Shown here: positions 25,593 through 35,999 of the stretch, one piece after another
Numbering within the stretch: the first letter of the stretch is position 1
Layout of the letters: every line of letters begins with the position of its first letter
NCBI RefSeq assembly: GCF_026109735.1
Contig: NZ_CP069620.1
Location: 2,728,001 to 2,792,000, forward strand
From: Salinimicrobium tongyeongense
GTDB taxonomy: Bacteria > Bacteroidota > Bacteroidia > Flavobacteriales > Flavobacteriaceae
Direction: 5' to 3'
DNA length: 64,000 nt
Program-made: the position numbers and the translations under genes
The notes under the pieces: generated by a model
The model's input: only the letters and a program-made list of their open reading frames with translations
Database searches by the model: none
Told to the model about the DNA's origin: nothing

Positions 25593-26190
25593 TGGTTTCT
25601 TAGGGATGTCTTTTTTTCTGAAGAAATTTGAATTGCGGTGCTTACTGAAAAGGCCGAAGTTTACATTCGTTTGAGGATCTTCCACTTTAAGATCAAACTT
25701 TCTTTTTTCCGTCCCCTCCGCCGGAGGGCTGCCTACAGGGCGAGGTAGGAGAGATTTTCTTGTGCAGGGTTAGAGAATTCAGGCCACGAATCCACCAATG
25801 ATTTTTCTATGGTTTCTTAGAAATATCTTTTTTTCTGAAGAAATCTGAATTGCGGTGGTTACTGAAAATACCCAAATTTACATTCGTTTGAGGATTTTCC
25901 ATTTTGAGAACAAACATTCTTCTTTTCGTCCCCTCCGCCGGAGGGCTGCCTTCAGGGCGAGGTAGGAGAGATTTTCTTGTGCAGGGTTAGAGAATTCCAG
26001 GCCACGAATCCACCAATGATTTTTCTATGGTTTCTTAGGAATATCTTTTTTTCTGAAGAAATCTGAATTGCGGCGCTTACTGAAAAGACCGAAGTTTACA
26101 TTCGTTTGAGGATCTTCCACTTTGAGAACAAACATTCTTTTTTTCGTCCCCTCCGCCGGAGGGGTGCCTGCAGGGCGGGGTGGTTTTTTT
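25592..26190 (+). repeat. Tandem array: three ~217-bp units each with a double-hairpin palindrome
   Basis: Units start at 25592, 25809 and 26027 (periods 217 and 218); the third is truncated. Each carries a G+C-rich palindromic element: 25712-25749, 25929-25966 and 26147-26183, with core CCCTCCGCCGGAGGG followed by a small stem (GCC...GGC) and CGGGGTGG or a decayed form of it. The first unit begins at the stop codon of the PfkB-family gene. The last ends in TGG followed by seven T, which could terminate transcription. No ORF is present in the unit. Confidence 0.85.
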
Positions 26191-33121: not shown

Positions 33122-33219
33122 CTTTCAAAAATAGGGTTTTTCGGGATGAACCTGCAAGAGCCGGAAGCCAAGACTTTTATAAATATGAGACAATTTTATG
33201 GAAAGCTTTAAAACTTCTC

Positions 33220-33545
33220 GCTTCCTGAGCCGATGTCTTGTTTATTACCCAAAATATTTCTTACAAAGCATCCCCTCCTCCGGAGGGGTGACCGAAGGTC
33301 GGGGTGGGTAATGGGAACCCTACTCTTAATTTTGTCCCTAAATCACAGATGATTTGTGTTTTCTCTACAGATTATTTTTCTGGTGAGGTTAGATATTAAG
33401 CTGGGGATGAATACCACCTAAAAATACAATATTTCGGAAACGATATCTTATAGTTTAAAACCAAATTTTCTTGCAAAGCATCCCCTCCTCCGAAGGGGTG
33501 CCTGTAAGGCGGGGTGGGAGGAGTCTGGCCGAAGGTCGGGGTGGG
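33220..33545 (+). repeat. Left flanking repeat of DUF559 island (two ~210-bp units)
   Basis: Two units starting at about 33220 and 33430 (period about 210), each with a double-hairpin palindrome in the same orientation: 33271-33308 and 33481-33518, plus a half element 33519-33545 (GGCCGAAGGTCGGGGTGGG). The block is almost identical to 34149-34476 on the other side of the DUF559 gene, with roughly a dozen differences by eye over about 285 bp. The stretch 33122-33219 shows nothing recognisable. Confidence 0.85.
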
Positions 33546-33556
33546 CAATCCCCTTA

Positions 33557-34048
33557 TTATGAATAATTTTCAATTATGAACTTCTTTAAATTCTCCATAA
33601 CCCGTTCAACATCCATCATTACCTCAGTAGCACTCACTTTCCAGACCAGTAACCCCAGATTTTGAAGATAAGTTTCCCGCCTATTATCATATTCTTTCTT
33701 TTCATTATGACTGGCTCCATCAATTTCAACAATCAGGCTTAAACCTTTTACATAAAAATCTACAATATAATGTCCAATCACCCGCTGCCGATCAAAATCT
33801 ATGTTATAAAATTTTCTCTTGTGCACCTGCTGCCAAAAAACGATTTCCGGTAAATTTCCCATTTTTCGCAGTGCCCTTGCTCTGTTTCTCAGATTTTTTT
33901 CTGCAGGCAAATATGTAGCAGATTTTCGGTATATAGGAACCGAGTCAATAGTAGCAAGAACAGGAGGTTTCTTTTCCACCCCGTCCTGCGGACACCCCTC
34001 CGAGGGAGGGGACACAGCATGAGATATTTTATTATTATCATTGATCAT
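33557..34048 (-). CDS. DUF559-family (Vsr-like) endonuclease with repeat inserted in its N-terminus
   Basis: 163 aa. Residues about 55-160 are a DUF559 domain: RQRVIGHYIVDFYVKGLSLI and VEIDGASH supply the Asp and Glu-x-Asp of the PD-(D/E)xK fold related to very-short-patch repair endonucleases; QNLGLLVWKVSATEV is typical of its end. Residues about 13-25 (SPPSEGCPQDGVE) are the in-frame translation of a double-hairpin palindrome, so the element has invaded or been recruited by the coding sequence. The first internal Met is at residue 63, inside the domain, so translation must pass through the repeat. Function and target unknown. Confidence 0.82.
   Translation of the reverse strand: MINDNNKISHAVSPPSEGCPQDGVEKKPPVLATIDSVPIYRKSATYLPAEKNLRNRARALRKMGNLPEIVFWQQVHKRKFYNIDFDRQRVIGHYIVDFYVKGLSLIVEIDGASHNEKKEYDNRRETYLQNLGLLVWKVSATEVMMDVERVMENLKKFIIENYS
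33976..34012 (-). repeat. Double-hairpin palindrome inside the DUF559 coding sequence
   Basis: Read on the minus strand (same strand as the gene): stem CCCCTCC-CTC-GGAGGGG, then GTCC-GCA-GGAC, then GGGGTGG. The second stem differs from neighbouring copies in both arms but remains paired. Confidence 0.85.
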
Positions 34049-34148
34049 GGTTTAAGATAATGAATTTTCAGATGAGCCAGTAGAAGTAATTGTGCTTTTA
34101 TAAGGATCAGCTGCAAGTTGGAAAGTAACATCACCTTAACAACTGCAG

Positions 34149-34476
34149 TATTTCGGAAACGATGTCTTGTAGTTTAAAACCAAATTTTCTTACAAAGCAT
34201 CCCCTCCTCCGGAGGGGTGACCGAAGGTCGGGGTGGTTAATGGGAACCCTACTCATAATTTTGTCCCTAATTCACAGATTATTTTCGTTTTCTCTGCAGA
34301 TTATTTTTCTGGTAAGGTTAGATATTAAGCTGGGGATGAATACCACCTTTAAAAATACAATATTTCGGAAACGATGTCTTATAGTTTAAAACCAAATTTT
34401 CTTGCAAAGCATCCCCTCCTCCGGAGGGGTGCCTGTAAGGCGGGGTGGGAGGAGTCTGGCCGAAGGTCGGGGTGGG
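34149..34476 (+). repeat. Right flanking repeat of DUF559 island (two ~212-bp units)
   Basis: Units start at 34149 and 34361 (period 212), with palindromes 34200-34236 and 34412-34449 and a half element 34450-34476. Direct repeat of 33220-33545. Between the gene and this block (34049-34148) I see no promoter or ORF. After the block, 30 bp remain before the pepD promoter. Confidence 0.85.
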
Positions 34477-34536: not shown

Positions 34537-35999
34537 ATGAACGAAGAAATAAGGGCTTTGGAACCAAAGCCACTCTGGAATAAATTTGCCGATCTCAATG
34601 CCGTGCCCAGACCCTCAAAAAAGGAGGAACGGGTCATAGAATTCATGAAGAAATTCGGAAATGACCTGGGGCTGGAAACCGAAGTTGATGAGGTAGGAAA
34701 CGTGATTATCCGCAAACTGGCCACTCCGGGAATGGAGAACAAAAAACCTGTAGTGCTGCAGTCTCACCTCGATATGGTCCACCAGAAAAACAACGATTCC
34801 AATTTCGATTTTGAGAATCAGGGGATCGAAATGTATGTTGATGGTGACTGGGTGCGGGCTAAAGGCACTACCCTTGGAGCCGATAACGGTCTTGGAGTGG
34901 CCACCATGATGGCTATTCTGGAAAGCAACGACATTCAGCATCCTCCACTCGAAGCACTTTTTACCATTGACGAAGAGACCGGGATGACCGGGGCCATGGG
35001 GTTAAAACCCGGAATTCTAAAGGGAGATATCCTGCTTAACCTCGATACCGAAGAAGATAATGAAATAGGCATTGGCTGTGCCGGTGGGGTTGATATCACT
35101 GCCTCGCGCACTTATACCGAAGAAGCTGTGCCCCAAGATACCATAGCTTACAGGGTGCAGGTAAAAAGCCTGCAGGGAGGCCATTCCGGGATGGATATTA
35201 TCAAAGGTCTTGGCAACGCAAATAAGCTCATGAACCGCATCCTCTTCGGGGGTATGAGAACTTCGGAATGAGAATTTCTGAAATCAATGGCGGCGGACTC
35301 CGTAATGCCATTCCACGGGAAAGTGAAGCTGTAGTTGTGGTAGAGAACATTCAGAAGAAAGACTTTACAGCTGAAATAGGGAAAGCCATTCAGCAGATTA
35401 AGCAGGAATATAAAAGCCTGGAACCAAAGCTGCATATTGAGGTTTCAGAAACTGAAGCCCCTCAAAAAGTGATGGAACTTGGAGCGCAGGAGTTACTGCT
35501 GAAGTCTCTTTATGCTGCCCATAACGGCGTGTACCGGATGAGCCCCGACATTGAAGGCCTGGTAGAAACTTCAAACAACCTGGCGCGCGTGACGGTCAAA
35601 AATGGCAAAATTGAAGTGCTTTGTTTGACCCGCTCTTCAGTAGATTCTTCAAAAACCGATCTGGCCAACAGCCTTCGCGCCGGTTTTGAACTTGCAGGTT
35701 TTGAAGTGGAACTCTCGGGAGCATATCCCGGCTGGGCTCCCAATATGGATTCTCCCATTTTAAAGGTGCTCGACGAGCTTTACAGGAAAATGAATACCGA
35801 TGAACCCGATATTGCTGCCTGCCATGCCGGCCTGGAATGTGGAATTTTAGGAAAAAACTATCCTGAAATGGACATGATCTCCTTTGGCCCCACCATTCGC
35901 GGAGCCCATTCGCCCGATGAAAGAGCAAGCATCTCCTCTGCCCAGAAATACTGGGAATTTGTGCTTGAAGTATTGAAGAACATTCCCGGGAAGAAGTAA
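34537..35999 (+). pseudogene. pepD: pepD, aminoacyl-histidine dipeptidase, interrupted by a 1-base frameshift
   Basis: Frame 1 gives 244 residues to a TGA at 35269-35271; the rest (to 35999) is in another frame. Adding one G in the run of five G at 35248-35252 joins them as FGGYENFGMRISEINGGG and gives 487 aa, the normal length for PepD. Metal ligands are intact: His77 and Asp79 in SHLDMVH, Asp116 in GADNG, Glu146-Glu147 in DEETG. Family knowledge: M20 peptidase that hydrolyses Xaa-His dipeptides. Both halves look otherwise unmutated, so a recent mutation or a homopolymer sequencing error is likely. Confidence 0.88.

Follow-up and report, generated by a model that had tools for sequence, protein, structure and literature searches.

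A small gene of the DUF559 family, a family of unknown function, lies between G+C-rich palindromic repeats in a stretch of 64,000 nucleotides from Salinimicrobium tongyeongense (contig NZ_CP069620.1, positions 2,728,001 to 2,792,000 of the forward strand; hereafter the window), which raises the question of whether the predicted nuclease and the repeats around it belong together. Using pattern searches, profile searches and gene-neighborhood comparisons, we find that the repeated element has the architecture of a potential intrastrand-triplex motif, that such motifs adjoin DUF559 genes well beyond this lineage, and that three sites are found in states with the gene, with the motif alone and with neither. 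We further propose, as an inference, that gene and motifs constitute one mobile unit.

The DUF559 gene and its flanking blocks

The gene (33557-34048, minus strand) encodes a product of 163 amino acids that matches the Pfam DUF559 model with an E-value of 5e-27; a Pfam scan of this product recovered only DUF559 and MTES_1575, and the Y1/HUH transposase domain (PF01797) was absent. Two pairs of direct repeats enclose it, one pair at 33206-33424 versus 34135-34353 (86% over 219 nt) and a second at 33419-33545 versus 34350-34476 (98% over 127 nt), and each flank in turn consists of two tandem copies (period about 210 bp). A 37-base element is present at the gene in five copies, one of them inverted and within the reading frame, together with two half copies. 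Allowing up to 2 mismatches on the hairpin pattern, the element matches at 8 places in the window, as against an average of 0.01 in sequence shuffles. The features are as follows:

33206-33545, plus strand: left flanking block; a pair of tandem units (about 210 bp), both carrying a triplex motif, and a half copy
33271-33307, plus strand: triplex motif TCCCCTCC-TCC-GGAGGGG-TGACCGAAGGTC-GGGGTGG (pattern search)
33481-33517, plus strand: triplex motif with one arm mismatch (pattern search)
33526-33544, plus strand: half copy; second hairpin and third strand, no left hairpin (by eye)
33976-34012, minus strand: inverted triplex motif inside the DUF559 gene, translated as residues 13-25
34135-34476, plus strand: right flanking block; repeats the left block in direct orientation
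34200-34236, plus strand: triplex motif (pattern search)
34412-34448, plus strand: triplex motif (pattern search)
34457-34475, plus strand: half copy without the left hairpin (by eye)
25712-26183, plus strand: site B; three motifs (25712, 25929 and 26147) in tandem units of about 217 bp, no DUF559; a TrmH-like gene adjoins

The initial annotation, made from sequence alone, had placed the gene between near-identical direct repeats carrying palindromes and a half copy, with an oppositely oriented copy at about residues 13-25 of the product; both claims held, and are refined by the tandem structure of each flank and by the reading of the tail given below. Its numbering of the inner copy as a ninth type could not be reproduced; eight copies are counted in the window. 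A scan of the window with Rfam gave nothing at gathering scores, and no plasmid copies of the locus were found.

The neighboring pepD-like gene (34538-35999) is broken in the window into two overlapping frames, the first stop being at 35271, and is a single frame of 489-569 amino acids in the other eleven genus members. The split is possibly a recent frameshift or a sequencing error.

The element has the architecture of a triplex-forming repeat

On one strand the element consists of a pyrimidine arm CCCCTCC, a short loop, the complementary purine arm GGAGGGG, a second loop of 12 nt that contains its own small hairpin, and the sequence GGGGTGG. The tail CGGGGTGG is the purine arm mirrored, with T replacing A. 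Since GGGGTGG mirrors the purine arm in this way, it is a potential third strand of a class II intrastrand triplex. Four of the five copies at the DUF559 gene satisfy a definition requiring exact 7-nt arms and at most one third-strand mismatch (the triplex definition). The window element is thus a potential intrastrand-triplex motif and a variant of the BoxC/PIT/TM repeats; this is shown for the sequence architecture, and folding into a triplex is not shown. Triplex formation in solution has been demonstrated for an isolated E. coli oligonucleotide, and the triplex-motif repeat is known from more than 260 bacterial genomes (PMC4666352). Holder et al. (2015) reported no mobility functions around the E. 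coli motifs, and neither "DUF559" nor "endonuclease" occurs in the main text of that study (PMC4666352). We found no published link between DUF559 and the triplex motif in the open-access literature searched; subscription papers were mostly outside this search.

DUF559 genes and triplex motifs are linked across bacteria

In a phylum sample of 296 Bacteroidota genomes, 171 had a DUF559 match. From the upper part of the match list we hand-picked, with flanks unseen, 40 standalone loci (one per genome, open frame below 230 amino acids) and 20 embedded loci (open frame above 600 amino acids). Matches at contig ends were skipped, as were others without reason of substance (e.g. G316, G069, G308, G273, G076, G189 and G224 among the standalone, and G300, G251 and G087 C9 among the embedded). 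The triplex settings given above were fixed after hairpins had already been seen near some loci, and were then reused unchanged.

A triplex motif was present within 400 bp of DUF559 at 34 of the 40 standalone loci (28 on both sides), compared with 4 of 222 same-locus control windows, and at 18 of the 20 embedded loci (11 on both sides), compared with 4 of 120. The same search of 80 named loci from genome_contigs recovered it at 39 (29 on both sides) versus 7 of 355 control windows. Among these 80, the motif was found at all 14 loci outside Bacteroidetes; these were chosen via the record title, with two Ignavibacteria kept and two "uncultured bacterium" records and one Balneolia record left out. 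By the definition used, 6 of the 40 phylum standalone loci and 41 of the 80 genome_contigs loci have no triplex motif. Counted strand-wise, motif density within 400 bp versus beyond 1 kb was 3.63 versus 0.053, 2.69 versus 0.075 and 2.03 versus 0.039 per kb, i.e. 36 to 68 times lower away from DUF559. The third strand occurs near DUF559 at 2.5-2.9 times the frequency obtained with shuffled downstream bases, and at distant hairpins at 2.1-3.3 times; being equally enriched near and far, it describes the repeat family, and it is the hairpin itself that carries the proximity signal.

Direct repeats between the two flanks, detected by local alignment of the left and right 900-bp flanks (score of at least 30), were found at 23 of 39 scorable standalone loci versus 2 of 221 control positions, and at 3 of 20 embedded loci versus 1 of 120 controls. 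This test was weaker in genome_contigs, with 16 of 69 scorable loci versus 8 of 340 controls at score 30; 1 of the 40 standalone and 11 of the 80 genome_contigs loci could not be scored.

Two candidate ideas were set aside in the course of these searches. The reversed hairpin pattern was discarded as a proximity control because it gave the same peak, pyrimidine arms read backwards being nearly identical, and distance and matched control windows were used in its place. A fixed direction of the tail, all outward or all inward, was unsupported, since both directions occur on both sides.

At the level of whole genomes in the phylum sample, at least two copies of a related hairpin, CCTCTCC...GGAGAGG, are present in 62 of 126 genomes with a strong DUF559 match (about E 1e-15) versus 17 of 170 others (Fisher p 3e-14), and in 61 of 121 versus 15 of 110 upon leaving out the largest gut family (p 1e-9). 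The counts were transcribed by hand, phylogeny was uncorrected beyond the omission of that one family, and because copies beside DUF559 genes enter the hairpin counts, the comparison is partly circular. Among the 170 genomes lacking a strong DUF559 match, ten have at least four CCTCTCC hairpins, with a maximum of 34.

Two of the sampled genomes, G124 and G163, have 34 and 20 CCTCTCC hairpins respectively and no strong DUF559 match, and might carry orphan families of the repeat.

Element forms match DUF559 subtypes within the genus

Across the whole 3.51 Mb genome the 26-base core of the element (up to 3 mismatches) has 15 copies in 7 places, five of them at the window DUF559 gene, and the reversed core pattern has no match. 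The genome encodes two DUF559 genes, of which only the window gene is adjoined by this core element; the second (G000 C1:1431462, G000 being the window's genome) has motifs of a different subtype on both sides. Of the 12 genomes from the window's genus, 11 have the CCCCTCC...GGAGGGG hairpin. It is missing from all 13 genomes that represent the family's other genera, even though 7 of those 13 have a DUF559 match; the element forms are therefore lineage-bound. The reversed hairpin pattern was nearly absent from the genus and family genomes.

The DUF559 genes of the genus could be divided by eye, from their protein sequences, into subtypes that include A and B. Within 700 bp of the five subtype-A loci there are 19 A-type and no B-type hairpins, and within 700 bp of the nine subtype-B loci there are no A-type and 17 B-type hairpins. 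The match for subtype B partly reflects shared descent, because the B genes occupy one syntenic site in nine genomes. Subtype-A genes are found at two defined sites and on one further contig in the genus. Five of the 19 standalone genus DUF559 genes examined, belonging to other subtypes, had no motif by the triplex definition.

Intergenic sites with gene and motifs, motif only, or neither

The 12 genus genomes share a conserved series of genes that extends from TrmH to DUF3810 and pepD; PfkB, the gene beyond site B in the window, did not turn up in the stretches from the relatives. Site A is the spacer between DUF3810 and pepD. Here G000 and G003 have DUF559 together with motifs, G005, G007 and G011 have only a single motif, and the remaining seven genomes have neither. 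Site B adjoins TrmH; there G005 and G006 have DUF559 together with motifs, three genomes (G000, G003 and G010) have motifs without the gene, and the remaining seven lack both. Each site is without DUF559 in 10 of the 12 genus members; the subtype-A gene of G007 is on another contig. The joints at these intergenic sites are not clean. By eye, no target-site duplication could be recognised at any site. The window's genome also has, at G000 C1:1069409, a slightly degenerate solo motif for which the six relatives compared offer no equivalent; there too the surrounding intergenic region is variable and the joint not clean.

Two further observations concern intergenic DNA of these genomes. At site A of G006 (L162) about 1.2 kb of other DNA fills the DUF3810/pepD spacer. 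A repeat-like stretch, ATCTCGACAGNGCATTTTCTTTCGGAGAAAGGAGATGCGACGAGAGATCTCAT, occurs at about 1340-1400 of L040 and in the orthologous intergenic DNA of L278 and L279.

In-frame insertions in host proteins

DUF559 is found in frame within eight kinds of host protein, two of which (MetH and RecG) were named by eye. A Pfam scan of eight embedded cases, which had been selected for long open frames, recovered host domains on both sides of DUF559 in six, namely a type ISP enzyme, LeuS, HsdR, an Eco57I-type enzyme and two UvrD-type helicases. In the HsdM case Pfam matches the host part only before DUF559, and a GATase_5 protein carries DUF559 at its C terminus. Judged by eye, the stretch following DUF559 in L087 and L089 is apparently out of the host frame. 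Because motifs and gene can be translated through without stops in one frame, the unit could persist in protein linkers, apparently without splicing. One inserted copy, in the LeuS protein of L018 (G013), has by eye lost catalytic residues and looks decayed, like an inert insert.

The MetH linker supplies a site within a conserved gene at which all three states are found. Of 26 genomes searched, six had no MetH match and G025 was left uncounted (its main copy is also empty). In the 19 genomes scored, using a triplex search with 5-nt arms, the linker has no motif in 12, the motif only in three (the window's genome, G007 and G011), and motif-DUF559-motif in four (G003, G009, G010 and G030). The linker of G005 has no motif and is 13 amino acids longer. 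A criterion for homing endonucleases, empty and occupied alleles of one site, is thus met at MetH.

The DUF559 protein has a homing-endonuclease fold

A profile search against solved structures with the window protein recovered first 3HRL, an endonuclease-like protein (6.8e-30), and then 3R3P, which is I-Bth0305I (1.8e-6). An AlphaFold2 model of residues 2-163 (pLDDT 85) gave the same two structures as the first-ranked Foldseek matches, with a TM-score of 0.78 by target length, which meets the criterion of a homing-endonuclease (EDxHD/Vsr-like) catalytic fold. D97, E108, D110, H114 and D121 are among the residues that do not vary across nine homologues. The protein has little outside this catalytic domain.

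A triplex motif beside E. coli ycjD

In E. coli MG1655 the annotated DUF559 gene ycjD (1,351,407-1,351,760) lies 167 bp from motif no. 9 of the 23 listed in Table 1 of PMC4666352 (1,351,204-1,351,239). The chance of such proximity is about 0.004, or 0.02 with the motifs confined to an assumed intergenic fraction of 12%. At least 80% of the ycjD locus is held by 3362 of 5426 E. coli genomes. No clean empty ycjD site was found among the three E. coli records opened: a TetR gene and efflux genes occupy the site at two ycjD-free loci, and the third record has a lone motif at another place.

A proposed mobile unit and its rivals

What is shown is the linkage of DUF559 with the motif and how widely it holds, the triplex architecture of the element, and the existence of three-state sites. 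The three outcomes that the initial annotation had named as refuting its proposal were each tested and none was met: element copies are not distributed independently of DUF559 genes (34/40 versus 4/222), DUF559 genomes are richer in the related hairpin (62/126 versus 17/170), and insertion polymorphism was found as three states at MetH and the two intergenic sites, the intergenic joints not being clean. Its proposal of a nuclease-repeat system that is RAYT-like but unrelated to RAYT is supported; that the DUF559 protein recognises or mobilises the element is still an inference. It missed that the element is a BoxC/PIT/TM-type triplex motif, that the link spans other phyla, and that in-frame units occur in housekeeping genes.

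On balance we lean towards the view that DUF559 genes and the adjoining triplex-forming elements constitute one mobile unit, in which the nuclease acts on the motif and the unit is copied by break repair. Cleavage, binding and movement are inferred in this reading, and its details are less probable than its outline. The autonomous form would be motif-DUF559 nuclease-motif, and the dispersed motifs would be its non-autonomous or left-over forms. A single-domain nuclease with the Vsr/I-Bth0305I fold is predicted to recognise the hairpin or triplex DNA that the motif exposes and to cut or nick it, upon which repair would copy the unit into the break in a homing-like manner. Recombination between the direct repeats at the ends could delete the gene, leaving a solo motif.

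A bolder version, to which we would give a little less than even credence, is that a pan-bacterial selfish element, a triplex-bounded DUF559 nuclease, copies itself into intergenic sites and, unspliced and in frame, into proteins; BoxC/PIT/TM repeats would then represent solo remnants or non-autonomous copies of it, and its nuclease would read the structure of triplex or hairpin DNA.

The alternative that survives best, and which remains possible, is that the motif is a target only: it would spread by other means, and the DUF559 protein, as a homing endonuclease, would cut at or beside it, so that the gene accumulates there. In its favor, motifs outnumber DUF559 genes (15 copies in 7 places, one of which has a DUF559 gene), there are motif-only sites where relatives have the gene, the protein has a homing-endonuclease fold, and some hairpin-rich genomes have no strong DUF559 match. 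Against it, motif and nuclease subtypes match, motifs are on both sides of the gene at 28 of 40 standalone loci, and hairpins are more numerous in DUF559 genomes.

An unlikely alternative gives DUF559 a housekeeping or regulatory role, as a nuclease resolving hairpins or triplexes, with the motifs being its selected regulatory or repair targets. The subtype-B gene kept at a single syntenic site in nine genus genomes would fit this, as would the E. coli motif loci, which are reportedly unstable (PMC4666352). However, subtype A is at two defined sites and on another contig, each site being without DUF559 in 10 of 12 genomes, and in-frame insertion into unrelated proteins fits poorly.

We consider it very improbable that a Y1/HUH transposase of RAYT type moves the palindromes with DUF559 as a passenger. 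Y1_Tnp genes are present in 15 of 25 related genomes searched, one of them about 4 kb from the second DUF559 gene, but the triplex motif was found at none of the 12 Y1_Tnp loci examined, eight of which have flanking repeats of other sequence, mostly palindromic, and G004 and G005 have hairpins and DUF559 without a Y1_Tnp match. Chance or base composition, whereby G+C-rich palindromes and small nuclease genes would both gather in variable intergenic DNA, where many copies of each indeed lie, is all but ruled out by the control windows (4/222 versus 34/40), by the reversed patterns with no or nearly no matches, and by the persistence of the link for DUF559 in long reading frames (18/20).

As an observation in its own right, the RAYT-like Y1_Tnp gene near the second DUF559 gene (L112 6296-6637, G000 C1:1427295-1427636) has palindromes of its own, GGGCTAAAGCCC and CCTCCGCCTGAAGGCGGAGG, and a similar proximity of the two genes is seen in G006, G008 and G010.

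DUF559 is a candidate for the missing mobility partner of a widespread triplex repeat whose spread is unexplained. With a DUF559 gene of unknown function beside a triplex motif, both open questions become testable in E. coli K-12. In addition, the unit would give nuclease domains a way into LeuS, MetH and restriction enzymes in frame.

Comparison with known systems

Like the BoxC/PIT/TM repeats, the window element has a pyrimidine arm, a purine arm and a mirror-image third strand, all on one strand, and like them it is a short dispersed repeat, at times in inverted pairs, tied to variable loci (PMC4666352); it differs in its shorter arms and in a second loop of 12 nt, versus 3 nt in the E. coli consensus. 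I-Bth0305I is the nearest solved relative of named function by both profile and fold, and both systems show occupied and empty alleles of a site in a conserved gene. I-Bth0305I is an EDxHD enzyme with additional DNA-binding regions, whereas the DUF559 protein is without the long DNA-binding region (PMC3943268), and the DUF559 unit adds flanking triplex repeats. By eye, no intron or intein was recognised, in embedded cases that had been chosen for their long open frames.

The CGTC-tagged REPs and the Rickettsia palindromic elements are likewise short palindromes that also occur in frame in genes, and the CGTC REPs are said to be without a dedicated transposase (PMC3733652). However, their stems are of 8-9 bp and nearly always start with A-T (PMC3733652), unlike the window elements, and identity with CGTC-tagged REPs, which would require such a stem next to CGTC, was rejected on the stem sequence CCCCTCC/GGAGGGG.

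In the RAYT/REP (REPIN) systems palindromes flank a nuclease gene and also occur elsewhere as solo copies, a criterion that the DUF559 unit meets. By contrast, the GTAG tag at the hairpin foot, a further RAYT/REP criterion, was absent by inspection from the five copies of the element at the gene, DUF559 has no Y1_Tnp match, and the Y1_Tnp genes of these genomes have other repeats or none. DUF559 and the triplex motif form a nuclease-repeat pairing that parallels RAYT/REP, built on an unrelated fold.
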